In this document: positions 3,838-18,647 of the stretch, piece by piece | Position numbering within the stretch: the first letter of the stretch is position 1 | Layout: every line of letters starts with the position of its first letter | Origin: a virus | Direction: 5' to 3' (one strand) | Virus record (IMG/VR): IMGVR_UViG_3300012920_000370 | Location: 1 to 20,285 of that record | DNA: 20,285 nucleotides | The notes under the pieces: model-generated | What the model saw: the letters and a program-made list of their open reading frames with translations, nothing else | Databases searched by the model: none | What the model was told of the DNA's origin: nothing | Program-made: the position numbers and the translations under genes

Positions 3838-3845
3838 GGTTGACA

Positions 3846-6800
3846 ATGGCTTTAGATTCTACATTACCAGTCGGTTTCCAAGAACCAGTTGAAGCAACAC
3901 CAACAGACGTTGAGGCAGTTCCATCCCCAGAAGGTGTGACCATACCAACAACGACAGTTGATTTGCCAACGCTTGCAGCCGAAGACATAGCTGCACAACG
4001 GGGTACATCCAGATCAGCACAAGATTTGTCCAACGACTTTCGCTCGTTGATGAACAGCAAGTCCTACGAGGAGATTGCTGCTTCTGGTGTTGAAATGATT
4101 GGTGATGAGGTGCTTACACCTAGTCGGATTCAGGAAATCAATGCTGACCCCGGTTTGTACAGTGCCCTTGAATACGAATATATCACACAAAAGTCAATCC
4201 CAGAACAAGACCCAGCAAAACCTGCTGTGCCGTTTTCTAGCCCAGATTACACAGAAGTCCGGTTACCTGAATGGACAGACGACTACAGCGCAGACTTCAA
4301 GTCTATTCTTACTGACGCGGTAAAAAACCGACAGAAGGTAGCTGCCCTAATTTCTGAAACCAACCCAAATCTCACCCGTCGGGGTCAAGACCTAATTCTT
4401 TCGCAGTTCAAGACTGGAGATACCCTGACTGAGTTTCTTCGGGCCGGAGAAGATTTGCCGGGGGAACTTTTCAGATTGCCTCTTATTGTAGGTATGGCAA
4501 GTAGTGCAGAAGGTGCTTTAAGAGATGCCTTTGTAGGAGCAGTGTTTGACGATAAAGATTTTGATACCACCGTTGTAGAATCTTTTGGTAAACGAATGAG
4601 CCAAAAAGGTTGGATGCGAGAATACGACAGACTACTAGACGATACCGTTGTGCTAAATAGTAGCCGTGCATCACTAAAGCGGGAATATAAAAAGAAGTTT
4701 ATAGCTGAGTACGGCGAAGATGCTTGGCGCGAAGATCATCAAGTTCCTTTGATAGAGGTAGTAGATGGTAAAGCGCAGTACAAGCTAGATGAAAATGGCA
4801 ACGTTGAGTACAGGGATGTCGATTTGGACGACGCCTCTGCAGACGGTATCTTAGAACTTGCCTACAAAGAATTACCCGCAAGCAGTAAGGCAGCTTTGTT
4901 CTTTGCTGAACAAGCCCCATTTACTTTTGTAGGCACTGCTATTGCTGTTTCTCGTTCAACAAAAACAATTAACAACATTCAAGCTGCACGAAAATCCGAT
5001 ACAATAAAATACGCAGATAAAACAGATTATGACGTGTATAAATCGCTTCGCGCTGAGAAAAAAGCAGGTATACTATCACCATTTAAAGGTGCTCTTAACT
5101 TCTTTACATTGGGCAACATAAGAGCAAAGGGCCGTATTGAAAAAGGCCAACAGATGACTGCTCATCAAGCCACCATATCTCGCTACGAAGATGACATACT
5201 TGAAATAAACAAACGCTTAGAAGATCCAAACTTAAATGATGTTCAACGTATAGAACTTGGAAAACAGCGGAATGTTTTACAGACAAATCTTCGTGGTTAT
5301 CAATTGCGTAAGGGCACGGGTACAATAAACAGCCCATACATGCGTAGTGTAGCAGCCGACGATGTTTTGATTTCCACTGCAGTCGGTTTAGGTGCAGCCG
5401 CACTACCGACAGACTTTACCGCATTTGGTGTAGATGGCGACACAATAGTCGGTATCACAGCCCCTATCTTTGCACCGTCTGTGTCACGTCTTGCAGTTTG
5501 GGGTGGCAGTAAAGCAATAAATACAATTACCGACAACACCATAAAGGATGTTGGTTTGATGCTGGAAAATTCAGACTTCCTTCCATTCATCACACAAGGC
5601 ACCCTTGTAAAAGGTGACGAAGCAAAGATGCGTTCTGTTATGACTGAGATGGGACGTGCCGTAACCGACCAAGATGTAGCAGCCTTTACTCAGCTAAACA
5701 GACTGTTCAACCAGATGACGCCTGAGTATAGGGAAAAAGCCTACCAGTCTCTTCTTGACTACAACAAAATGATCAACGGTTTCCGTGACGATATGTTTGC
5801 AGTCGGTATGTCAGAGGAAGCAATTGCTGAAGCTTTACCTACATTACACTTGACTGTAGCACAAGCGACAGGTATTGCCCCGCTTCTTGCCTTTCAAAAG
5901 ACTGCTATTCAAGATTTGAATGCAGCTAATCTTTCCAAAAAGATGCCGGAAATTATGGAAACTATCGGTGCCGAAGAAGCTACCTTAGAAGGCATGACAA
6001 CAAACCTGAATCTCTTAAAGGACTTGATTCGCAAGAATTCAGGCGTAGATTTAGATTCGAACGTCGGTTTACAGCAGTTGATGAACGACACTGCAGAAAG
6101 TATTGCATTCCAGCAGGGAAACCTGAATAAAAAGAAACAGGAGATGTACCTTGCCCTACAAAACTACATCGACAACGTAGGTGTAACAGATGGTATAGAT
6201 ACCGACACTATAGATAAGCTTGTTGAGTTAGAAACTATCTTGGATACTGGGGAAGTTGCTGGTATCATAAGTCGTGGTGATCGTGTAACAAAAGTACACA
6301 ATCGCATAATTAAGTCTGCAGAAACAGAACTTCAAGCCATACAAGATCTATCATCGGACATGGACGACTTAACATTTAACAAAGAGTTCCGCCGTATTGC
6401 CGACATAATGTTCGACGCAGAGTATGGCAGACGTAAAGCCCTTGCGTCTGCTGAATACCGCAAGGTCGATGAAATGGTAGGTGCAGATACTCTAGACATG
6501 ACAGACGTTATGCGTCGGTTAGTTGATATGACAGAAGACATGAAAGACGAACCTCTGTCTGTAGTATTCGGCGGCATGAAGGGTTTCTTTAGCAAAGCGG
6601 GTGGCAAGGATCTTCACAATGCTATGCGTAACATGGCACGTCGTGGCTTACTTGCAGAATTCGGAGAAGATACCATCACGGCTTTGATTACGCAGCGACG
6701 TGAAGTAGACGGCTTAGAAAACTTTGGCTACATAGACTTGGCTTTGGAACTGGCTGAAAACAGCACAGAACCCCTGCAGTTCTTTGCGGCTAAACCATCT

Positions 6801-8423
6801 GAAGTTGAAAATGTCTATAGGTATTTCCGCGACAGAGCCATTACCTTGAACCGACAGTCCAAGAATCCTGCACGTCTAGAGGCGGACATAACTGAAGAAT
6901 TCAAAGATACTATCAATGAGGTGTACAGCAACTACGATCCTGCAGTACGCAGACAGATTGAAAAGGCACGTCAGACCTATCAAAATAACGTTGGTAACAG
7001 GGTTGATAAGGGACGCTATGCACAGGTGGTTCGTGACGGACGCGAACGTAAGAACCCAGCAGATGAAACCCGGCGGTACTATTATCCTGATGAAACCAAA
7101 GCCCCAGAAGCACCATTCCTCAAGATTGCAAGCCTCGCTGTAAAAATTATGGATGAAGCTGATCCGGCAGAAAGTTTAGCAGCTATTGCAAAAGAACGTG
7201 ACCGTATTATGTACCTTCTAGGCGGTACAAAAAATGCTGATAACAGGTTGGTTTTTGATTTCCGTGATCCAGTACAAAAGCGTAATGCCTATCTAGCCCA
7301 GCAGATGCTAGAAACCATGATTGGTAAAAAAATATCCAACAAGATGGCACAGGATGCGGACTTGGCTATTGATATCTTAAACGAGGGTATGGACGTAGCA
7401 AGCAAGAAGCTACCTTACAACTTTTCAAAAGCTAAACGAATCGTTGACATTGAAAATGAACTACGAGTCGGTTACATTGATGAGCAAGGTGTGTTCCAAA
7501 GCACAGGCGGTGTTGAACTAGACGCAATTAAGAACCGTGCCGCAAGCTTTGACAAAATTATGCAAACCAATAAGGATGCACAAGTCGAATATGAAGCTAT
7601 TCGTAAGCGGGTTGATGTAACATCCGGTGTACTTGGGATTGCACAAAAGAAAGAGTTGGATGCAATCAACGAAACGATTGGCCAGCTTTCACAAAACACA
7701 AAGTTAATAAACAACCCCAAAGCCTTCTATTCAGAGTTCTTTGAAAACGCCACCCCAGAAAGCTACAATAACACAGTAGCTGAATTTGTAGCACAGAGTG
7801 GCGGCAAACTGACAGAAGACCAAGTACGCGAAAGCATGAAGTATATGTATCTGCGTGGTATCTTTGAACGTGGTGGTGTGCAGACAGGTTTGGATGCCCC
7901 ATCGGGTCGGTTGCGTGGTGACGTAACAAAGATCAATACGTTTATCGATGACGTATCTGATCCACGTCGTGCAGAGGTTATGACAGCAGTGCTAGGTAAA
8001 GATCATGTAGATCAATTGAAACGTATCGCACGTTGGTCTAGCTACAGCATGGGGGATGCCTTAGACTTCCGTGCAGGTCGGGCAACAAAGGGTATGTCAC
8101 TAGACTCTGTATTCTCTCGCGTGTTTAATATTGCACGAGGTATGGTTAGCCCACTTTATGTCGGTACTGAAGCAGCTACCCGCATGATGCTAGAAAACAA
8201 ACAGAACTTAATCAACTTGGCTCTTAGTGACAGACAAGCTGCAGAGTTTATGGCAAACGTTTTAACTAATCCAGAACGTCTGACTGAGTTGGACATCGAA
8301 ACATTTGGCTTACGTGTACAGAACTATCTTGCACGAGCCGCAGCAGAGGGAGCAGTTAAGATTCCATCTGTACAAGAAAGATATGGTATTACTGAGGAGA
8401 AAAATGATGAAACAGTACAATAA
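3846..8423 (+). CDS. Very large internal virion / DNA-ejection protein, 1525 aa
   Basis: I chose the ATG at 3846: AAGG at 3836-3839 lies 6 nt before it and overlaps the previous stop. The TTG at 3840 lies almost on that site and is less plausible. At 1525 residues it is comparable with or larger than T7 gp16 (about 1300) and follows a gp15-sized gene. The N-terminus is Pro/Thr/acidic. Hydrophobic stretches occur near residues 348-372 (ALFFAEQAPFTFVGTAIAV) and 507-560 (ISTAVGLGAAALPTDF and onward) inside long helical charged regions; such segments could enter the host membrane. The end (about 1420-1525, with ARGMVSPLYVGTEAATRMML) resembles the C-termini of large internal proteins in marine podophages. 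No lytic transglycosylase motif was recognised. It overlaps the next gene by 20 nt. Confidence 0.65.
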   Translation: MALDSTLPVGFQEPVEATPTDVEAVPSPEGVTIPTTTVDLPTLAAEDIAAQRGTSRSAQDLSNDFRSLMNSKSYEEIAASGVEMIGDEVLTPSRIQEINADPGLYSALEYEYITQKSIPEQDPAKPAVPFSSPDYTEVRLPEWTDDYSADFKSILTDAVKNRQKVAALISETNPNLTRRGQDLILSQFKTGDTLTEFLRAGEDLPGELFRLPLIVGMASSAEGALRDAFVGAVFDDKDFDTTVVESFGKRMSQKGWMREYDRLLDDTVVLNSSRASLKREYKKKFIAEYGEDAWREDHQVPLIEVVDGKAQYKLDENGNVEYRDVDLDDASADGILELAYKELPASSKAALFFAEQAPFTFVGTAIAVSRSTKTINNIQAARKSDTIKYADKTDYDVYKSLRAEKKAGILSPFKGALNFFTLGNIRAKGRIEKGQQMTAHQATISRYEDDILEINKRLEDPNLNDVQRIELGKQRNVLQTNLRGYQLRKGTGTINSPYMRSVAADDVLISTAVGLGAAALPTDFTAFGVDGDTIVGITAPIFAPSVSRLAVWGGSKAINTITDNTIKDVGLMLENSDFLPFITQGTLVKGDEAKMRSVMTEMGRAVTDQDVAAFTQLNRLFNQMTPEYREKAYQSLLDYNKMINGFRDDMFAVGMSEEAIAEALPTLHLTVAQATGIAPLLAFQKTAIQDLNAANLSKKMPEIMETIGAEEATLEGMTTNLNLLKDLIRKNSGVDLDSNVGLQQLMNDTAESIAFQQGNLNKKKQEMYLALQNYIDNVGVTDGIDTDTIDKLVELETILDTGEVAGIISRGDRVTKVHNRIIKSAETELQAIQDLSSDMDDLTFNKEFRRIADIMFDAEYGRRKALASAEYRKVDEMVGADTLDMTDVMRRLVDMTEDMKDEPLSVVFGGMKGFFSKAGGKDLHNAMRNMARRGLLAEFGEDTITALITQRREVDGLENFGYIDLALELAENSTEPLQFFAAKPSEVENVYRYFRDRAITLNRQSKNPARLEADITEEFKDTINEVYSNYDPAVRRQIEKARQTYQNNVGNRVDKGRYAQVVRDGRERKNPADETRRYYYPDETKAPEAPFLKIASLAVKIMDEADPAESLAAIAKERDRIMYLLGGTKNADNRLVFDFRDPVQKRNAYLAQQMLETMIGKKISNKMAQDADLAIDILNEGMDVASKKLPYNFSKAKRIVDIENELRVGYIDEQGVFQSTGGVELDAIKNRAASFDKIMQTNKDAQVEYEAIRKRVDVTSGVLGIAQKKELDAINETIGQLSQNTKLINNPKAFYSEFFENATPESYNNTVAEFVAQSGGKLTEDQVRESMKYMYLRGIFERGGVQTGLDAPSGRLRGDVTKINTFIDDVSDPRRAEVMTAVLGKDHVDQLKRIARWSSYSMGDALDFRAGRATKGMSLDSVFSRVFNIARGMVSPLYVGTEAATRMMLENKQNLINLALSDRQAAEFMANVLTNPERLTELDIETFGLRVQNYLARAAAEGAVKIPSVQERYGITEEKNDETVQ

Positions 8424-9649: not shown

Positions 9650-9797
9650 AGATACCCTCTTTTGGTAGGAAGACCATAACAAACGAACCACAGCTAGGGC
9701 AACTCAAATTTGTTTCCATGCAGTATTCTTCGTCTTCTTCAGCGATGTCATGGTCTGCACCCCATATCAACTCGTGTTTACAATGCCAGCAGTTCAA
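9624..9797 (-). CDS. Small zinc-ribbon protein, 57 aa (TTG start)
   Basis: This short frame fills the apparent gap between two larger genes. The TTG at 9797 has AAGGAG with a 7-nt spacer, an excellent site, and lies in the last codons of the GIY-YIG-like gene; the stop is TGA 9626-9624. The protein begins MNCWHCKHELIWGADHDI and continues to TNLSCPSCGSFVMVF. The two CxxC knuckles (Cys3/Cys6 and Cys33/Cys36) about 27 residues apart form a typical zinc ribbon, and the linker is very acidic. From memory, small proteins with a CxxC...ELIWGxDHD...LxCPxC pattern recur in marine phages. Function is unknown; a DNA- or protein-binding accessory is possible. Confidence 0.8.
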   Translation of the reverse strand: MNCWHCKHELIWGADHDIAEEDEEYCMETNLSCPSCGSFVMVFLPKEGIYDPSKNNT

Positions 9798-10242
9798 TTG
9801 CTTTCTCCTTGCTTATCTTAAACCATTCACCACGACGATCAACAGATTCAGTTTCGAATCTATCTAACAAGTTGGTTTCAGCCGCATGTCTGTCGTCTGT
9901 CTTTATAGATTTAATTATTATGTAATCTCTGAAGGGAGAGGATGTCTGATAGTTTGATAACCTGTCGGTTGCAATTGCCGCCTTACCCACCTTTACCCAC
10001 TCAGGCCACGCTGGGTTCATAATCAAGTACACTTCCCCTTCAGATGTCTTTTCAATATCACTATGTGACCAAGCATCATCTAGGGATTTGTACTTTCCCG
10101 GCTTATGCAGGGGACTTTTTTTGGATATTTCTTTACCATTTACATACATCCGCAAGGAATCCCGACGCTTCACAGCATCAGGATTGTCCTTGTAGTACAT
10201 AGGCTTTCCCGTGTACGGGTTTGGATCGAAGCGATTAGACAT
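9778..10242 (-). CDS. GIY-YIG-superfamily (T5orf172/MUG113-like) protein, 154 aa
   Basis: The start ATG at 10242 lies 2 nt after the RNR stop; no clear ribosome site is visible, so coupling is likely. The C-terminal 85 residues look like a T5orf172/MUG113 GIY-YIG domain: EVYLIMNP (residues 70-77) and VKVGKA (83-88) match the two strands of the GIY..YIG motif, Arg94 and the NYQTSSP segment match the catalytic Arg helix, Glu122 fits the metal-binding Glu, and GEWF (138-141) is the usual closing element. The N-terminal 65 residues are basic and probably contact DNA. Free-standing GIY-YIG nucleases cut DNA, some as homing enzymes. The neighbouring RNR gene is a frequent homing target in phages, but no intron is visible here. 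Confidence 0.75.
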   Translation of the reverse strand: MSNRFDPNPYTGKPMYYKDNPDAVKRRDSLRMYVNGKEISKKSPLHKPGKYKSLDDAWSHSDIEKTSEGEVYLIMNPAWPEWVKVGKAAIATDRLSNYQTSSPFRDYIIIKSIKTDDRHAAETNLLDRFETESVDRRGEWFKISKEKAIELLAL

Positions 10243-10244
10243 AA

Positions 10245-12173
10245 TTATGCCGCGTTCAAGTCCACTACTTCACACACGCCAGCAGTACAAGCCAATTCGC
10301 GGGAACCACTGGTGTTATCTTCCTTCTCAAAATCTGTAAGTTTGTTCCAGTCAATAACTACATCTTCATACATCTTCTTCCATTCCAAGTATTCATCTGG
10401 TTCGATGTCCTGATATGGGGCTTGCTGATAGGTATGATCACTGTGCGGCAGGAAAGATACGCCCGATGCCACGTCAAAGTTTTCGTATACCCACGCACCG
10501 ACTTCCATCCACTCGTGCTCTTTAACAGACACGGTGATAGATGGCTTGTGCTCACACCAGTGAATCGCATACGTCTTCCACAGTTCTAACTGTTCGATAG
10601 CTGTTGTCTGTGTGCGAGTCACGGCACCATCAGGCGATTTCATAGGAAACGAAAACACAGTGACGCTATCCGGCTTCATCATGTCTCTTTCATTGTATAA
10701 GCCCTGCTCAATCAAAAACTGTGTCAATGGGTCTTTGTTGTCCCCACGAACCGTACGAATAAAATAATCGTTGTGCCGTGCATGAATACCACTAGCTGCG
10801 TCCACGAGTTGAGATACAGTACCCGATGGCTTTACACAGGTGATTGCTGCACTCTGAGGTATTCCAAGCATGTTCGCAAACTTCTTGTTGGTATCTACGG
10901 CTACCTGACGCATTTCTTCTAGCCAACGCTTGCTGTCTACGTTCTTTGAAAGCACGGGATGATCCATGATACCAGTCAAGGATACGCCTAACAAACGCTC
11001 TTCCTCTGTGTTGTCTTTCCATACCTTCCTCAAATATTTAAAGTCTGTCAAGGTAGACTGAAGGGTTCCAAGAATTGTAGCTAAACGAACCTTGCGATTC
11101 AAGTCATCCAATGAGTCAGTTTCACGAACTACCACCTCTGACAGATTACAAAACTGATAGCCCCGCAAGATAATCTCTGAACACGGGTTCGTTCCCCACA
11201 TGTGGCCTTGCTCACGGCGTCCGTTACGGCTTACTTGCTTGTCTGCCGCCTCACGGTTGAACATACCACGCTCCCCAGACTTACTGTCATACAGCGCAAG
11301 CCATTCACGCATGAACGTACCCATCTCAGGCTTCTGCTTGTAGGCTACAGAGTTGTTTGCCAACGCACGTTGCGGCTCTGTCTCCCACCACATGCCTGAC
11401 TTGGCGTGTGCCATCTGATCGTCATTTAAGTTAGATAGGCTAATCAAGGCAGAGCGACGAACGCCACCTACAACTACAACCTCACCTATCTTACACATGA
11501 TGTCGTGACATTCAATAGGAAACAACCGACGCCCTTTAGCTTTCTTGAATACACTAACAGTGAAATCAAATAAGTCTAATAGAGGTTGTGGGCCGGATGC
11601 ACGTCCCCCCATAACTTTAAGACGGGCACCAGCTTCTCGTATAGCAGACACGTCCCACGTAGGAATTTGTCCGGCGTATAGTAGCGCGATTAGTTCACGC
11701 AAAGCTTTTGCCCATCCCGGCTTACTATCGGCTACTGAAATAACGATGTCAGAACTACCAAAATTATCGGATATAATAGGAAGTCTATCCACATTTTCTC
11801 TCTCCACACTAAAACCAACACCAGTACCACACATTAATATGTACATACATTCGTCGAAAGCACGAGGACTGTCAACAGGAATATAGCTACAATTATATCC
11901 ACAGATATTGTCACGGGCCAACGCTGTTCCTGCTGTCATCATTGCCCTCATAGACGGCATGACATCAAGACTCAAGATACCTTCACGTAACTCGTCGGTT
12001 ACCTTCTTATCTAGCTTGACATTGCACTTGCCTTGAATCTGATTCTCCATGAAACCGACGTATCGGTCTACAGTTTCATCCCAATTCTCTCTACGTTGTT
12101 CATCATCAAGCCATCGTGCATACCGTGACTTGTGAATAAATTGTTGATATGGTGTTGGTAACATGTTGCTCAT
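10245..12173 (-). CDS. nrdJ: Adenosylcobalamin-dependent (class II) ribonucleotide reductase, monomeric type
   Basis: The enzyme reduces ribonucleotides to deoxyribonucleotides using a B12-generated thiyl radical, feeding phage DNA synthesis. ATG 12173 follows AAGGGAG with an 8-nt spacer. At 642 aa it is shorter than the roughly 740-aa Lactobacillus RTPR. Key positions: NPCSE (Asn329, Cys331, Glu333) for the radical Cys, Cys342 exactly 11 residues later (as Cys408/Cys419 in RTPR), Cys95 in CGYNCSYIPV as the other redox Cys, GVSLTG near residue 396, and a C-terminal CTAGVC pair (Cys629/Cys634) with the five-residue spacing of the RTPR shuttle cysteines. No glycyl-radical or diiron partner gene is visible, consistent with class II. 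It lies between DUF3310 and the GIY-YIG gene in the nucleotide end of the operon. Confidence 0.92.
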   Translation of the reverse strand: MSNMLPTPYQQFIHKSRYARWLDDEQRRENWDETVDRYVGFMENQIQGKCNVKLDKKVTDELREGILSLDVMPSMRAMMTAGTALARDNICGYNCSYIPVDSPRAFDECMYILMCGTGVGFSVERENVDRLPIISDNFGSSDIVISVADSKPGWAKALRELIALLYAGQIPTWDVSAIREAGARLKVMGGRASGPQPLLDLFDFTVSVFKKAKGRRLFPIECHDIMCKIGEVVVVGGVRRSALISLSNLNDDQMAHAKSGMWWETEPQRALANNSVAYKQKPEMGTFMREWLALYDSKSGERGMFNREAADKQVSRNGRREQGHMWGTNPCSEIILRGYQFCNLSEVVVRETDSLDDLNRKVRLATILGTLQSTLTDFKYLRKVWKDNTEEERLLGVSLTGIMDHPVLSKNVDSKRWLEEMRQVAVDTNKKFANMLGIPQSAAITCVKPSGTVSQLVDAASGIHARHNDYFIRTVRGDNKDPLTQFLIEQGLYNERDMMKPDSVTVFSFPMKSPDGAVTRTQTTAIEQLELWKTYAIHWCEHKPSITVSVKEHEWMEVGAWVYENFDVASGVSFLPHSDHTYQQAPYQDIEPDEYLEWKKMYEDVVIDWNKLTDFEKEDNTSGSRELACTAGVCEVVDLNAA

Positions 12174-12467: not shown

Positions 12468-12814
12468 TGTTCTGATCCAAAGTCTACTCTGATTACATTA
12501 TCTTTAACTAATTTAGTTACTTTAGGGTCATCCACCCCTTCTTCGTCAATAATTTCTTGACCAGTTAAACGAAACTTAACTGCCGCTATGCCTTGATCGT
12601 ACAGTTCATCTGTATGATACCTGATCATATCAAGCGCACCTTCTTGTATCAACATAGCAGGGCTGAAGTCTTCATCGTCTTCATAATTCTTGCCAGTTGT
12701 GTCATAAGCTGACAGAGTAAACTCACCATCCCCTGTTGCCCTGAGTATGATGTAGTATCTGTCGGGTAGAAGCGATGCCGCTTCCATAGTCCGATGATAT
12801 TCGTCGTTGCTCAT
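12464..12814 (-). CDS. Hypothetical acidic protein, 116 aa
   Basis: The ATG at 12814 overlaps the endonuclease stop (ATGA) and its own stop overlaps the DUF3310 start (ATGA), so it is tightly embedded in the operon. The protein is acidic. Residues 20-45 form probable beta strands (YYIILRATGDGEFTLSAYD), followed by an acidic loop, a helical stretch (AMLIQEGALDMIRYHTDEL) and an acidic tail. No catalytic motif, Cys pair or membrane span was found. It is not recognised. The neighbours (endonuclease I, DUF3310, RNR) suggest a minor role in DNA processing or nucleotide supply, but this is context only. Confidence 0.7.
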   Translation of the reverse strand: MSNDEYHRTMEAASLLPDRYYIILRATGDGEFTLSAYDTTGKNYEDDEDFSPAMLIQEGALDMIRYHTDELYDQGIAAVKFRLTGQEIIDEEGVDDPKVTKLVKDNVIRVDFGSEQ

Positions 12815-13179
12815 TTCTTATACCAATCTGTGGGTATTGAACCTTCTGCCCACTCAAATCCATGTCGTTCACACCAAGAAGCATACGATGTCTTGCTGCC
12901 TTTGTAAATCTTATTCGACGCCCTAACGAATACAAAACGAATGTCTAATTTAGGATGTTGTTTTTTTACAAGTAGCATCTTTACCCTATCGTCTTTAGTC
13001 AAGTGACCCTTTGCTTCAACGTATATGTCGCTTTCAGGAAGATAGAAATCAGGTGTATAGTTACGAGGTTCGGGAATGTATTGAAACTTAGAATTTTCAT
13101 ATTCAAAAGGAACTTTGTTATCTGTAAGTATTCTAGCTAAATTAAGTTCAAACTGTGACCTATACCCTGCTTTTTTCAA
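12811..13179 (-). CDS. T7 endonuclease I-like Holliday junction resolvase
   Basis: This branch-cutting endonuclease resolves Holliday junctions and in T7 (gp3) also degrades host DNA. With the TTG at 13179 the product is 122 aa. Catalytic residues line up with T7 Glu20/Asp55/Glu65/Lys67 as Glu11, Asp44 (NYTPDFYLPE), Glu55 and Lys57 (VEAKG). Downstream, DDRVKMLLVKKQHP, LDIRFVF, KIYKGSKTSY and IPTDWYK all match the T7 family. The TTG start makes a TTGA overlap with the preceding stop and has AGGA 8 nt upstream. A longer frame from ATG 13287 (158 aa) would overlap the upstream gene by about 112 nt and lacks a good ribosome site; it cannot be excluded. The next gene overlaps by 4 nt. Confidence 0.88.
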   Translation of the reverse strand: MKKAGYRSQFELNLARILTDNKVPFEYENSKFQYIPEPRNYTPDFYLPESDIYVEAKGHLTKDDRVKMLLVKKQHPKLDIRFVFVRASNKIYKGSKTSYASWCERHGFEWAEGSIPTDWYKK

Positions 13180-13556
13180 AACTCTAATCCTATCGACTGA
13201 AACCTTTTTATCAAGTACCCTGCCAGTTTTGGGGATAGTCTTTCGATGTTGGTAAGTTCTGTTGTTAAAGGGTGCATCGGCACACATACATAAGCCCCAC
13301 TATGTGCTGTTCTACTTATATTCTGTAATTGTTCCTCTACAGTTCGCATGTCTCTGACTTCTGTTTCAGCTTGAAGTGAGCCTTTTTTGCTGTAGTTATT
13401 AACAAGGGTGAGGGGTAGCCCGTTTTCATGCAAACGCATCTGGGCCACCCGACGTTCTCCCCCAGACTTGGAAACCGATTCGATATAGATATGATACAAG
13501 CTTTTATTCATGTTCATCAGATCTACCTCGTAGTTTTTTACAAACAAGTACGGCAT
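13176..13556 (-). CDS. Hypothetical protein, 126 aa
   Basis: The ATG at 13556 shares its A with the stop of the nuclease gene upstream (TGATG). The TTG at 13589 would lengthen it into that gene and is not favoured. The product begins MPYLFVKNYEVDLMNMNKSL, has a beta-rich middle, then a polar helical region (VRDMRTVEEQLQNISR) and a C-terminal helix ending IKRFQSIGLEF. No zinc ligands or catalytic motif could be seen. It is not recognised. It sits between a Cas4/RecB-like nuclease and endonuclease I, with its stop overlapping the resolvase start. A role in recombination or DNA processing is only suggested by this position. Confidence 0.65.
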   Translation of the reverse strand: MPYLFVKNYEVDLMNMNKSLYHIYIESVSKSGGERRVAQMRLHENGLPLTLVNNYSKKGSLQAETEVRDMRTVEEQLQNISRTAHSGAYVCVPMHPLTTELTNIERLSPKLAGYLIKRFQSIGLEF

Positions 13557-14449
13557 CACACTTCTTTCTTCTTCAGTGTAGCGTACCAAACTTGCGGCGG
13601 ATTCTTAGCCCGTGACGTAACACGATCATGCAATACTGCGTTAGGCCAGCAGTGATATCTGTAACCACACAGGTTGCATTCCTTTGGTAGTAGTTTGTTT
13701 CCAGTATCTACAATCTCGCCATCTTTCTTGTACGTTTCAGGTACAGCCTTATATGGTTTGAATGGCTTTACGTCCGGATTGTTAAGAAACTTGATACGCT
13801 CTGCCGCATCCTTTAGATACGCTTCTTTGTCATCTTGTGACCAATCTGGAACCTCAACGATAGCAACCTGACCGTTGGATTTGTTTACGACAATCCATCC
13901 GCCAAACGGCATGTCAGTAGCTTCAGAATACAGGAACCCCTGCATAAGATAACCAAAGGGATCATCTTCCTTTAGTTTTTCATATCCACCTAGCCCTGTG
14001 AACTTGTAGTTGAATGCCCAATCACTGGCTGACTTGACATCCCAAACTTTCTCAACGCCCGTTTCATCACGAATGATAACGTCAAGGGTTCCGCTTACAA
14101 CCTCGTTACCAATCTTCAATTCGACAGGACGCTGGTAGTCAACGATGTCTACACCAGCCTCTTTCATAATCAGCATAATGATAGATTCGGTTAGGTCACC
14201 AAACATAAACCTGAACAGGGTATTGTACTCCATCTCTTCCTTGATGCCCTGCTTATCCAACACCTGCTGGCAAAGCGGACGGCCCAAGCCCGACATACGA
14301 ATACGATAACCCCCCCGTTCAGTTGTAAGTTGTTTAACTACAGAATCACTGCATTCCTTTTGAAAGGCAGAAAGAGTCTCAGGGGAGACAGTAGTTTCCC
14401 CCCTGAGAGCCTTAGTCATGTAGTCTTGTATTCTAAGCAGCGTTAGCAT
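13556..14449 (-). CDS. Cas4/RecB-like PD-(D/E)XK exonuclease with Fe-S cysteines
   Basis: This is probably a DNA exonuclease, the functional counterpart of T7 gp6. In the 297-aa version from ATG 14449: Glu89 in a helix, GTLDVI (Asp123), VWDVKSA (Asp137/Lys139) and GYLMQGFLY (Gln170/Tyr174, the motif IV QxxxY) form the RecB-type nuclease core. Cys60 near the N-terminus and Cys258, Cys261 and Cys267 (CNLCGYRYHC) near the end match the four-Cys iron-sulfur box of Cas4/AddB nucleases. The start is uncertain: ATG 14449 (17-nt overlap with the upstream gene) or ATG 14419; neither has a strong ribosome site. The family usually has some residues before the IQDYMTKALRGE segment, which favours 14449. 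It lies immediately after the ssDNA-binding-like gene. Confidence 0.82.
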   Translation of the reverse strand: MLTLLRIQDYMTKALRGETTVSPETLSAFQKECSDSVVKQLTTERGGYRIRMSGLGRPLCQQVLDKQGIKEEMEYNTLFRFMFGDLTESIIMLIMKEAGVDIVDYQRPVELKIGNEVVSGTLDVIIRDETGVEKVWDVKSASDWAFNYKFTGLGGYEKLKEDDPFGYLMQGFLYSEATDMPFGGWIVVNKSNGQVAIVEVPDWSQDDKEAYLKDAAERIKFLNNPDVKPFKPYKAVPETYKKDGEIVDTGNKLLPKECNLCGYRYHCWPNAVLHDRVTSRAKNPPQVWYATLKKKEV

Positions 14450-15293
14450 CGTCGAAGTCCGCCGCCAGATCAATGTCATCATCATCAGCGATCAACTTTA
14501 CAGCTTCACGATGCTGATTCATAACATTCTCATTGTGGCCTTTTACAGTCTCTGCAAACATGCCCATGAGTTCCTTATCCTGATCTGTTATATCGACTTC
14601 CTTCTCCAGTGTTGGTACAGGAGTCCAGAAAGTTACGCTGCCGTTTTTATGACGGTGTGTAGTAAGGGAGATCTCACACTTCTGCATAAGCTTCTTCTGC
14701 TTAGACAAGCCGCCGATAAAATCGTTGATGGGTTTAAAACCGGAACGCTTAAAGTAAGCGACTACTGCTTGATCTTCAATCTTCACGGCTGTACCGTCTG
14801 CTGTTTTAAACTCACCAGATATCTTTCCATAAAGAACCTGATTACAAACAACGGCACGAGAGTTCAGGTAGGCAATGTCGTCTTTTGGTAGACGATCTTC
14901 TTCTTCACGGGTCAAGCGACCACACTTGTTGCCACCAGTTGTGTCTGGGAACATACCAGACAGAGTTGGTTTCTGTACAGACTTAGATGAGAAGGTGCCG
15001 CTTTCCTGATCCCATACACTGTACTCAAAGGTACGAAGAATAGGGCGGAAAGATACCTTATTGGCATAAATAAACCGACCATCTAAGTACATCTTCCAAT
15101 CACCACGAGGCAAGGTCTGACCATCTTCAGTTTCTGCATCATAGTTGATGTTTAAGCGAGGCAAACCGACTTGACGGTTGGTATTACCGCCCTGACCACT
15201 TGCTTCCATTAAAGCTTCAGCATCATCATTATTAAATGCTGAAACGATTGCGTCCATATCGTCAATATTCATTACGTCTGTCCCTGTATTCAT
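14433..15293 (-). CDS. Probable single-stranded DNA-binding protein with acidic tail, 286 aa
   Basis: No named domain is recognised with certainty. The N-terminus is acidic, the centre (residues 65-240) is beta-rich with conserved-looking aromatic strands (GDWKMYLDGRFIYANKV, RTFEYSVWDQ, VTFWTPV), and the C-terminus is a strongly acidic tail, LIADDDDIDLAADFDDA. An OB-like beta core plus acidic tail, encoded between the polymerase and an exonuclease, is what a T7 gp2.5-type ssDNA-binding protein looks like; its tail would bind polymerase and helicase. ATG 15293 follows AAGGAG by a rather long 11 nt; ATG 15272 behind GGGAC is an alternative. The function is inferred from architecture and place. 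Confidence 0.6.
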   Translation of the reverse strand: MNTGTDVMNIDDMDAIVSAFNNDDAEALMEASGQGGNTNRQVGLPRLNINYDAETEDGQTLPRGDWKMYLDGRFIYANKVSFRPILRTFEYSVWDQESGTFSSKSVQKPTLSGMFPDTTGGNKCGRLTREEEDRLPKDDIAYLNSRAVVCNQVLYGKISGEFKTADGTAVKIEDQAVVAYFKRSGFKPINDFIGGLSKQKKLMQKCEISLTTHRHKNGSVTFWTPVPTLEKEVDITDQDKELMGMFAETVKGHNENVMNQHREAVKLIADDDDIDLAADFDDANAA

Positions 15294-15332: not shown

Positions 15333-16874
15333 TTACAGTTCTATTTCTTTTGAGTCAAGCCAATTTTTACCTATTTTTAATTCAATCCCGACAGGCATAT
15401 CGTACTCGACACCATACCGATTAGCTGTTTCTTCAGGTAAACTCTGCATAGCATAGGCTAATAGATTGATGCAAGCCTCTTTTTCATCTGGGTGCACATC
15501 AAGCACAATCGAGTCGTGCACTGTGTTACAAATTACAGAATTTAGATTTCTTGATCGCATCATTTTATCTAGACGAACCAGAGCGGCTGGCAACAAGTCG
15601 GCTGTTGCAAACCCCTGCACCGGATAGTTACAGATAGCTGTACGGTTTGTGGCTGTACCCCACTCAGTCCAACGTGCAGACGGAAATGCGTACTGTCTAC
15701 CGCTTGGTAAGGTAATTACTTTGGTTCGCACTGCTTCTTTCTGCAATTCCTTATGCCACTCAGTGACGCCCTCATACTTTTCCTTGAAAGCACGGTAATA
15801 GCGTTGCTGGTTTTCTGTGCCGCTGACACCACCGTACAAAGGCTTGAACGTGTGCGCCTTCGCTTCTTGACGTGTGCATCCGATAACACTTGCAGTATAG
15901 CTGTGAACATCTGTACCTTCTTTCACATCGATGTAGGCCTGTGAATCTTTAGACAAGAAACCAGCCACCCTAAATTCTAGTTGCGAGTAATCCCCTTCAA
16001 GTATAAAGCCACCCTTGAAGCGGCTCTCGACAACCTTCCGTATAGCGAAGGTATTTCCACGCGGCATATTCTGAAAGTTAGGATTGCGAGACGAAAGACG
16101 GCCCGTCGCCGTAATACACTGCATGAATTCTGGATGGATGAAATTATTCGCGTCAACATTATTCTTCATTCCTTCTACAAAAGTTGACAAGTAAGTACGC
16201 AAAGCACTGTAACGCACATAGGCTACAACAAATTCGTGAGCGTCACCAGACAAGTCGGTTTGTCGGTTTTCTAAGGTAACCTTGTCGGTTTTGAAACCAG
16301 CCGCCGCCGTGTCCATCGGGTCACGAGGTATCAGCTTGAATCCGGCTACCTCTCGTGTAGGTATGTAAAGCACACCAGCCCCGCTACACTTCCTACAGAC
16401 ACGCACGGCCTTTCCTATTGTGCCATCTTTCTTGCGTGGATGAAACCGACCTTCACCCTTACACTCATCACATTGCTGGCCCCGTGTCTTGTGCACAACC
16501 TCTGTCATGTTCTTCACGGCAGACTTGAACTCGCCACGCTTCATCCGTGTACGCATCTTAGGCTTCATTGTATTGCCGCGCATCTCATGTCCCAAGTTGA
16601 ATATGCGTGACCACGTTTTCTTATCTTTAACACGCCGTGAATAGAGCAACACGCTCCTGTCATCGGGGCTAGACAGGTTGATAGGGGTATCCCCCATAGC
16701 ATCCCGTGCAAGGCGTTCTAGGCGAACCTCAAGTTCGTCCATTTCCTGTTGGTATTCCTGTCGGATATCTTCTAAGGTATCTAAATTAATCTTCAGGCCG
16801 TTCCGCTCCATACGAGCCAGAACGTCTGTCATCTCAAGCGACAGTCTCAAGGTTGGTAGTAAAGTCCGATGCAT
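15333..16874 (-). CDS. Family A DNA polymerase, polymerase part, with DnaJ-type zinc module
   Basis: The product is the 513-aa replicative polymerase without the exonuclease domain. Visible elements: thumb-side helices (LARMERNGLKI, residues 20-30), a zinc module at 135-167 with CDECKGEG and CRKCSGAG (Cys135/138/160/163) like the DnaJ central domain, TATGRLSSRNPNFQNMPR (255-272), motif A GDYSQLEFR with Asp295, motif B RQEAKAHTFKPLYG with Arg335, Lys339, Phe343 (equivalent to E. coli 762) and Tyr347, and motif C VHDS with Asp454. HMO-2011-type phages are known for a DnaJ-like insert in PolA. Unlike the usual single chain, the exonuclease is a separate gene. ATG 16874 has GAGGAA with a 7-nt spacer; TTG 16925 is open in frame but has a poor site. 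Confidence 0.93.
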   Translation of the reverse strand: MHRTLLPTLRLSLEMTDVLARMERNGLKINLDTLEDIRQEYQQEMDELEVRLERLARDAMGDTPINLSSPDDRSVLLYSRRVKDKKTWSRIFNLGHEMRGNTMKPKMRTRMKRGEFKSAVKNMTEVVHKTRGQQCDECKGEGRFHPRKKDGTIGKAVRVCRKCSGAGVLYIPTREVAGFKLIPRDPMDTAAAGFKTDKVTLENRQTDLSGDAHEFVVAYVRYSALRTYLSTFVEGMKNNVDANNFIHPEFMQCITATGRLSSRNPNFQNMPRGNTFAIRKVVESRFKGGFILEGDYSQLEFRVAGFLSKDSQAYIDVKEGTDVHSYTASVIGCTRQEAKAHTFKPLYGGVSGTENQQRYYRAFKEKYEGVTEWHKELQKEAVRTKVITLPSGRQYAFPSARWTEWGTATNRTAICNYPVQGFATADLLPAALVRLDKMMRSRNLNSVICNTVHDSIVLDVHPDEKEACINLLAYAMQSLPEETANRYGVEYDMPVGIELKIGKNWLDSKEIEL

Positions 16875-17418
16875 TGTATAGTTCCTCAAAGGTAGTGCCA
16901 AAGGCTTCAAGCTGTTTAACTGCAATTTCTTCTGTAGCTAGTACGTCAGCTTTACCGTACTCCTCTACTATCTCCCACGGTATGTCGTAGAAGGTCTTAC
17001 CGCTTTTAAGATACGGCTCCACAAGGTCTTTCTCCTTGCGGGTAACGTCATACTTTTCTGCAAGAGAAGCAAGTCCAAGAGGCCAACGCTGGGCTTTCGA
17101 TAGGACATATTCCGCCACCATCGTATCAAAGATATAACCGTCATAAACAAACCCGCACTCCCGTATCCACGATAAGTCAAACTTGATGTTTTGTCCCACA
17201 ACTACATCGGCTTCGTCAAGTGCCTCTTGGAATAGTTCTGGGGCAAAATCATAAGCTTCCTTGTCTGCGTGATGATAGCAGTGGTAATGTATGTAGGGTG
17301 AAGACAAACGCTTGTACCCAATAGATACGAGTCGGTTTCCAAAGTATGGCAGGGCGGTAGTGCCGCCGCTATCCTTGTGTATGTGGGTTGTTTCCACGTC
17401 AAAGGTCATAATATTCAT
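16834..17418 (-). CDS. DnaQ-like 3'-5' exonuclease subunit of split family A polymerase, 194 aa
   Basis: This is the proofreading part of the polymerase as its own gene. ExoI is FDVETT (Asp7, Glu9) right at the N-terminus, ExoII is GQNIKFDLSW (Asn77, Asp81) and ExoIII is YGKADVLATEE (Tyr154, Asp158), so all catalytic acids of the DEDDy family are present. The start is ATG 17418, which shares one base with the helicase stop (TAATG) and follows GAGGA by about 11 nt; a longer frame to 17472 lies inside helicase. The frame stops at TGA 16836-16834, 41 nt into the polymerase gene, which runs in the +1 frame. In T7 and relatives the two domains form one chain, so a complex of the two products is expected but unproven. 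Confidence 0.9.
   Translation of the reverse strand: MNIMTFDVETTHIHKDSGGTTALPYFGNRLVSIGYKRLSSPYIHYHCYHHADKEAYDFAPELFQEALDEADVVVGQNIKFDLSWIRECGFVYDGYIFDTMVAEYVLSKAQRWPLGLASLAEKYDVTRKEKDLVEPYLKSGKTFYDIPWEIVEEYGKADVLATEEIAVKQLEAFGTTFEELYNASDFTTNLETVA
16882..16887 (-). promoter_or_regulatory. Shine-Dalgarno of the polymerase gene, inside the exonuclease gene
   Basis: GAGGAA on the minus strand (16887 to 16882) lies 7 nt before ATG 16874, within the last 20 codons of the exonuclease frame. It decides the polymerase start and argues that the two halves are translated separately rather than joined by frameshifting. Confidence 0.75.
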
Positions 17419-18647
17419 TAGTAGTATATTCCTCGTTCGATATCGATTTGTCCGTTGATCATGCCGTGCCAACCATTCAGCTTATTCTTCGATATGCAAA
17501 TGTGACGTACAGTATTTTCTACCTCACTAGATCCTGTCTTGCCAATACCAATAATTATGTCAGCCTCACCCGCCTTACCTGTGCGTGAGTTGTCCAACAT
17601 CGAATAGTCAATCCACTGCCTGTCGTGTGCTTCATAGTTTGCCTGACTAACAGCCCACACTAAGGTCTTGTTTCTTTTAGCTATTTCCCGTGCGAATACA
17701 TAGGTTTCCTTCAAGCGTTCATCCCCACGATTGAACTCACCAGCAATACGAAACTTATCTAGCTGGTCACAGAACATAACGTCTGGTTTGTTTAGCTTAG
17801 CATACTCATCGACTTCTTCAACCGACGTGCCAACTGAATCCATGATAGTAAGCAACGGGGCAATCTCATCGGCGTACTTAACCGACAGGCTGACCCTATC
17901 CCTGACCATCTCTTCCCGTGTCAAACCAAAGTACGACTGGATTATACGCAACTTAATCTTTGGTGCAGGTTCTTCGTTTGCCCAATACACAACCTTGAAT
18001 CCCTGCTTAATGTAAGATGCAGCAAGGAAGCAACAGAACGTTGTCTTGCCAACTTCTGGACGGGCAAACAAAATACCCAAGTTGCCACGATCCAATCCGC
18101 CAACGTTCTCACTGATCAGATCGTAAGTAAAAGGGAAGTCGGGATCACCAGCCTCATCATTTAGCAGGGTATCCAAGTCATCCTCGACCTTTGTATAGGT
18201 AGTCTTGTCACTGATACGTCCGTCCTCTACAGTCTCAATAAGGCGGCGTAACTCGCCAAACTCCTCGCTGTCCCCTGTAAAGATTTCGATAGCCTTTTCA
18301 CCTATCTGCCGCGCACGATCACGTAACCAGAAATTGTGTACCAAGTCTAGGTGCAAGTCCCCGTTGTCAGCGTTACCGACATCTAGGGTTGCAATAGTTT
18401 CTTGTACTTTGTTCCGTGTCGCTTCTGGCATAGCAGGGTTGCGGTCATTGAACAAGGTAGCTAACTCGTTGATAGTTAAGTCTTTTCCGTACTTGGTATG
18501 TGAATAGGTTAACGTGTCAAATATGTCACGCATCTCTTTTTCAAACATAGTTCTGTCGATGATGTTTTTAACGCGACCAAAGAAGTCAACGTTGAGACAG
18601 AAACCAAGTATCTGCTTATCTATCGATATAGGATCGTATGAACTCAT
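17418..18647 (-). CDS. DnaB-like replicative helicase, 409 aa
   Basis: This is a hexameric 5'-3' helicase that unwinds the fork. ATG 18647 is preceded by GAGG with a 6-nt spacer. The N-terminal 130 residues are helical and resemble the DnaB N-terminal domain. The RecA-like ATPase has Walker A ARPEVGKTT (195-203; the first Gly is replaced by Ala), the glutamate region YWANEE (221-226), Walker B PDVMFCDQLD (288-297) and motif H3 VWAVSQAN (330-337). It is separate from the primase, unlike the T7 gp4 fusion, and overlaps the primase gene by 32 nt. A SLDNSR-like loop (MLDNSRTGKAGEAD, 350-363) fits the DnaB motif H4 region. The assignment is secure at family level. Confidence 0.92.
   Translation of the reverse strand: MSSYDPISIDKQILGFCLNVDFFGRVKNIIDRTMFEKEMRDIFDTLTYSHTKYGKDLTINELATLFNDRNPAMPEATRNKVQETIATLDVGNADNGDLHLDLVHNFWLRDRARQIGEKAIEIFTGDSEEFGELRRLIETVEDGRISDKTTYTKVEDDLDTLLNDEAGDPDFPFTYDLISENVGGLDRGNLGILFARPEVGKTTFCCFLAASYIKQGFKVVYWANEEPAPKIKLRIIQSYFGLTREEMVRDRVSLSVKYADEIAPLLTIMDSVGTSVEEVDEYAKLNKPDVMFCDQLDKFRIAGEFNRGDERLKETYVFAREIAKRNKTLVWAVSQANYEAHDRQWIDYSMLDNSRTGKAGEADIIIGIGKTGSSEVENTVRHICISKNKLNGWHGMINGQIDIERGIYY

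Follow-up and report, generated by a model that had tools for sequence, protein, structure and literature searches.

Organization of the exonuclease-polymerase locus

The stretch of DNA analyzed here (the window) is the whole 20,285-base virus record IMGVR_UViG_3300012920_000370 of IMG/VR, a single metagenome contig. On its minus strand, next to a helicase gene, the exonuclease and polymerase parts of a family A DNA polymerase are encoded in two ORFs:

17418..18647, minus strand: DnaB-type replicative helicase gene, whose stop overlaps the exonuclease start (TAATG, one base shared)
17418 (ATG) to 16834 (TGA), minus strand: DEDDy 3'-5' exonuclease gene, a separate ORF of 194 aa (PF01612)
16897..16905, minus strand: GCCTTTGGC, with synonymous sites nearly invariant among the 120 distinct exonuclease genes compared
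16882..16887, minus strand: GAGGAA, the Shine-Dalgarno-like (SD) sequence of the polymerase start, which also codes for exonuclease E178-E179
16834..16874, minus strand: exonuclease/polymerase overlap of 41 nt read in both frames, i.e., exonuclease residues 182-194 and the polymerase N-terminus
16874 (ATG) to 15333 (stop), minus strand: family A DNA polymerase gene without an exonuclease domain and with a zinc-motif insert, an ORF of 513 aa (PF00476)
16374..16472, minus strand: DnaJ-like double CXXCXGXG motif (CDECKGEG and CRKCSGAG, polymerase residues 135-142 and 160-167)

Both ORFs are intact, and the polymerase frame is +1 relative to the exonuclease frame. A preliminary description of the window had put the exonuclease end at 16834 and a +1 polymerase ATG at 16874 behind GAGGAA; these coordinates were confirmed, and the spacing from the hexamer (16887-16882) to the ATG is 7 nt. 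The same hexamer precedes the ATG of the exonuclease (17434-17429, 10 nt spacing) and that of the helicase (18657-18652, 4 nt spacing).

Sequence and structure of the two proteins

Pfam assigns the first ORF to DNA_pol_A_exo1 (PF01612, 2.1e-11) and the second to DNA_pol_A (PF00476, 3.3e-53). All DEDDy motifs are present in the exonuclease, i.e., D-x-E (D7/E9), Nxx(F/Y)D (N77-D81), and YxxxD (Y154/D158), and none of the residues D7, E9, D81, Y154, and D158 varies among 45 split and 49 fused homologues. Confidence in its predicted structure (pLDDT 90.8) extends to about residue 182; residues 185-194 form a low-confidence tail (pLDDT <50) inside the overlap. The best structural match of this model is the exonuclease domain of Escherichia coli Pol I (8oo6); it also resembles, less well, stand-alone DEDD nucleases such as NrnC. 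The predicted polymerase structure (pLDDT 88.7) is best matched by Bst Pol I fragments. Simple Nei-Gojobori estimates, in which dS is near saturation in the more distant pairs, gave an omega of 0.07-0.22 for the exonuclease (window against 11 split relatives) and slightly lower values for the polymerase (0.05-0.09 where dS was measurable). Judged by these ratios and residues, both genes are under purifying selection and the exonuclease active site is intact.

The polymerase aligns with those of HTVC033P, HMO-2011, and the CRP phages with 96-100% query coverage and 38-48% identity. A double CXXCXGXG, i.e., a partial DnaJ domain, is the mark of HMO-2011-type polymerases (PMC9038755). The window polymerase carries both motifs, with a sub-threshold Pfam hit to DnaJ_CXXCXGXG (4.8e-4), and their Cys columns are invariant, fused members included; family A and a similar primase-helicase-polymerase order are likewise shared. 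In all reported HMO-2011-type polymerases, a single chain holds the exonuclease, the DnaJ-like motif, and the polymerase (PMC9038755, PMC6918029), encoded by one CDS of ~680-715 aa as against the two ORFs of 194 and 513 aa here. The preliminary description had taken this type to be single-chain, which is right for the isolates examined (PMC9038755): the polymerase is fused in HMO-2011, HTVC033P, and CRP-1/2/3/235. The window departs from this single-chain arrangement, and its near relatives are split as well.

Split and fused genes among relatives

Among the best 80 relatives in IMG/VR, the same +1 offset was found in 78/78 of those with both parts, window included. The sample was then widened by further queries and one degenerate pattern to 477 distinct polymerase stretches; relatives without a readable exonuclease were set aside, and identities are given against the window polymerase. 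The composition of this sample follows the queries, and the proportions of split and fused genes given below are not abundances. At ≥57% identity, all 161 distinct stretches are split and none is fused (11 at ≥90%, 42 at 75-90%, 98 at 65-75%, and 10 at 57-65%), with an offset of +1 in 150, an offset of -1 in three, and a gap in eight. Between 50 and 57% identity there are 39 split versus 46 fused stretches, and below 50% all are fused (185/185); fused relatives are first seen at ~55% identity and lower.

Down to ~51% identity, the split is the rule across the clade, apart from a single fused lineage nested in it, and the recurrence of the arrangement in hundreds of separate contigs is far beyond chance. 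The preliminary description had argued for a genuine split and against a sequencing slip, and the 161 relatives bear it out; a fused gene in close relatives, which it had named as evidence to the contrary, was found in none at ≥57% polymerase identity. It had also called a two-subunit phage Pol A uncommon, a word that needs softening, as the arrangement is standard throughout a large clade and separate exonuclease subunits are annotated in phages elsewhere (PaP3, see below). The phages behind the split are a large, aquatic, and previously unremarked group; a description of the present clade was not found in the open-access papers searched.

Phylogeny of the polymerase

Trees were built from the polymerase only, one with 109 representatives and a careful one with 55 rows, and the root was chosen rather than inferred. 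The split sequences of the larger tree fall in one clade of 58 (SH-aLRT 100), with two fused representatives inside. The split clade has a support of 100/100 in the 55-row tree, where the fused L483 and L559 are nested in it, the node joining them with split relatives being supported by 98/98. The HTVC033P group is its sister (node 92/86). A single origin of the split without reversal was recovered in 0% of 200 bootstrap trees, and the architecture changed at least twice. As the polymerases outside the clade are fused, the simplest accounts would be a fission in the clade ancestor that was followed by at least one re-fusion, or else at least two independent fissions. This split architecture is old, clade-wide, and selectively maintained. 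The idea that it eases exonuclease swapping was not supported: discordance between exonuclease and polymerase identities is no greater in split pairs than in fused ones.

Translation signals at the seam

The cut sits at the boundary between the exonuclease and polymerase domains. In the PHROG profile phrog_17, the two window proteins match positions 670-828 and 841-1237, respectively, and in fused relatives the linker goes directly from the last exonuclease helix to the first polymerase helix. We scored the seam for an in-frame start codon together with ≥4 nt of SD match, using the same interval in fused sequences, and found both elements in 50/56 split representatives versus 5/50 fused ones. 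By this rule a recognizable SD at the seam is absent in 6/56 split representatives, so translational coupling may vary among split lineages. Where the ORFs of split representatives overlap, they do so by 1-68 nt, 4-nt overlaps included. Among split relatives, the start codon shifts in position with the length of the polymerase N-terminus, and the SD keeps a distance of a few nt from it. In L073, GAGGAA is changed to GGAGAA, by which the encoded Glu becomes Gly and the SD is kept; codon 178, where it encodes Glu, is GAG in 96/96 sequences. The offset between the ORFs is +1 in most split lineages and -1 in others.

In two lineages the exonuclease and polymerase ORFs lie apart, with other genes between them, and direct coupling at the seam cannot operate there. 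The distance is ~1.2 kb in L410, L445, and L595 and 450-881 nt in L588, L589, L592, and L599. In L406 a single gene for a 146-aa protein (L406:4419-4859) lies exactly between the two ORFs, linked to its neighbors by a TAATG with one base in common and an ATGA overlap of 4 nt. At this site the L410 group carries several small ORFs, over up to ~1.2 kb.

Several other features near the seam were noted. GCCTTTGGC lies ~30 nt upstream of the polymerase start and corresponds to exonuclease codons 172-174, which are almost fixed (GCC 115/116, TTT 104/106, GGC 116/119) while neighboring codons vary. It overlaps a -35-like TTGGCA, for which a -10 partner exists in only 29/121 relatives. An internal sigma-70-like promoter (TTGGCA-N17-TACAAT, 16901-16873) was not adopted because the site is patchy (10-11/12 matches in those 29 relatives, missing in most) and its RNA would begin downstream of the polymerase ATG. 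Nor was a conserved RNA structure at the seam convincing, as only a 3-bp hairpin was seen. Farther upstream, exonuclease codons 111-120 (17088-17059, minus strand) have a synonymous diversity of 0.27 against a mean of 0.75, possibly reflecting recombination or an embedded signal.

Probable proofreading in trans and alternative readings

We consider it probable that the window encodes an HMO-2011 (DnaJ-motif) type replicative polymerase working as two proteins, i.e., a free DEDDy proofreader and an exonuclease-less polymerase, with editing in trans. Translation would be coupled: ribosomes finishing the exonuclease gene would begin, or begin again, at the polymerase ATG, and the two products would be made in roughly matched amounts. 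The exonuclease would dock on the polymerase where it sits in Klenow/T7, held by non-covalent contacts, and edit mismatches in trans. Most likely, we infer, it associates with the polymerase to serve as a proofreading subunit in trans. The closest experimental support comes from another polymerase family: in the T4-like phage 25, the split proteins gp43A and gp43B co-purify and show polymerase activity (PMC2988022). An extension of this model is possible but doubtful, namely that the proofreader is dissociable, with a ratio set by translation of the overlap or by inserted genes and hence a tunable fidelity, the split being an old adaptive state that was re-fused in one lineage.

It is rather improbable that the exonuclease has been freed for a role of its own (recombination, end trimming, or nucleotide salvage) and has left a polymerase without proofreading. 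The slightly weaker constraint on the exonuclease, as seen in omega, would permit a looser role, the gap lineages prove that such genes can become separated, and the fold has its likeness to NrnC and other stand-alone nucleases, though less than to Pol I. On the other side, all catalytic residues of the fused type are kept, the genes remain near neighbors with their order unchanged in those split genomes that were read, and the fused lineage inside the clade suggests continued cooperation between the two domains.

Programmed ribosomal frameshifting in the overlap, by which a single exonuclease-polymerase fusion would be made from ORFs that are only apparently separate, is very unlikely. The overlap is open in both frames over 44-134 nt in many relatives, and the near-invariant synonymous sites of GCCTTTGGC lie just upstream. 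However, the offset is not the same throughout the clade, an SD and a start codon are kept at the seam, and L056 and L075 have a polymerase-frame stop between GCCTTTGGC and the polymerase ATG. There is no overlap between the ORFs in L410, L445, L595, L588, L589, L592, L599, and L406; other genes are inserted between them, and a frameshift cannot join ORFs across such genes.

Recent pseudogenization, with the exonuclease half decaying after a frameshift, would agree with a single-indel fission as the presumably simplest origin, and is hardly credible in view of the five catalytic residues being invariant in 45/45 split homologues, the low omega, and the confident full fold of the model. A sequencing or assembly frameshift, conceivable for a single metagenome contig, is refuted by the relatives (161/161 split, no fused copy) and has practically no probability left.

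Comparison with other split phage polymerases

A similar arrangement is that of PaP3 (Bruynoghevirus), which also has separate exonuclease (175 aa, PHROG 403) and polymerase (545 aa, PHROG 17) ORFs, cut at the same domain boundary of the phrog_17 profile (669-832 and 836-1233). A free-standing exonuclease subunit is thus of a kind already known from the PaP3 annotation. The PaP3 exonuclease has no detectable pairwise similarity to that of the window, a Pfam scan found no DnaJ-type motif in the PaP3 polymerase, unlike the window polymerase, and the PaP3 genes are non-overlapping with about six ORFs between them, whereas the window genes overlap. The window exonuclease matches phrog_17, the fused polymerase, better (7e-23) than PHROG 403 (9e-12), and by sequence it falls outside PHROG 403. 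It seems likely that the window pair works like the PaP3 pair and has a separate origin.

The T4-like Aeromonas phages 25 and 44RR share a split replicative polymerase (gp43A/gp43B), which, unlike that of the window, belongs to family B; its split is associated with an insert, either untranslated or a homing endonuclease gene. MEP401/402, VP41s3, and QDWS535 do have a family A polymerase in two ORFs (PMC10580990), but there the polymerase domain itself is cut; the exonuclease stays joined to the N-terminal polymerase part, and a small ORF or suspected intron often separates the halves. In our own sample, the polymerase of L600, L601, L604, L606, and L086 (Zobellvirus-like and related) is interrupted elsewhere, inside the polymerase domain, and that of ICP2 has an HNH endonuclease gene within the joined CDS.

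Significance of the split clade

The survey of HMO-2011-type polymerases kept sequences of >540 aa with ≥80% coverage and published a size range of 540-779 aa (PMC9038755). A 513-aa polymerase would drop out under these requirements, and, to go by the methods of that survey, its filter would miss the split clade, a well-supported sister of the HTVC033P polymerases; estimates of abundance that rely on this filter may be too low. With related polymerases that share a fold and would proofread either in cis (L483 group, HTVC033P) or in trans (window clade), nature offers a direct comparison of fidelity, processivity, and complex formation.

Remaining genes of the contig

HMO-2011-type phages as a group share capsid, portal, and terminase genes; no capsid, portal, or TerL gene was recognized in the 20-kb contig, and an ORF of 1527 aa (3840-8423, plus strand) in the putative virion half matched none of 50,697 phage records and nothing in Pfam or PHROGs. 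A cellular host was sought; the sole match in the genome collection, a 35% hit in a Planctomycetaceae MAG, is uninformative. Three further genes with nuclease or nuclease-like products are found on the minus strand:

13556-14485, minus strand: Cas4-domain exonuclease (PHROG 1990)
12811-13287, minus strand: phage endonuclease I (PF05367)
9778-10242, minus strand: T5orf172/MUG113 domain protein, nuclease-like

A class II ribonucleotide reductase is also encoded (10245-12173, minus strand). It is 69% identical to that of HMO-2011, the polymerase being only 42% identical, which suggests that the two genes have had different histories or rates.
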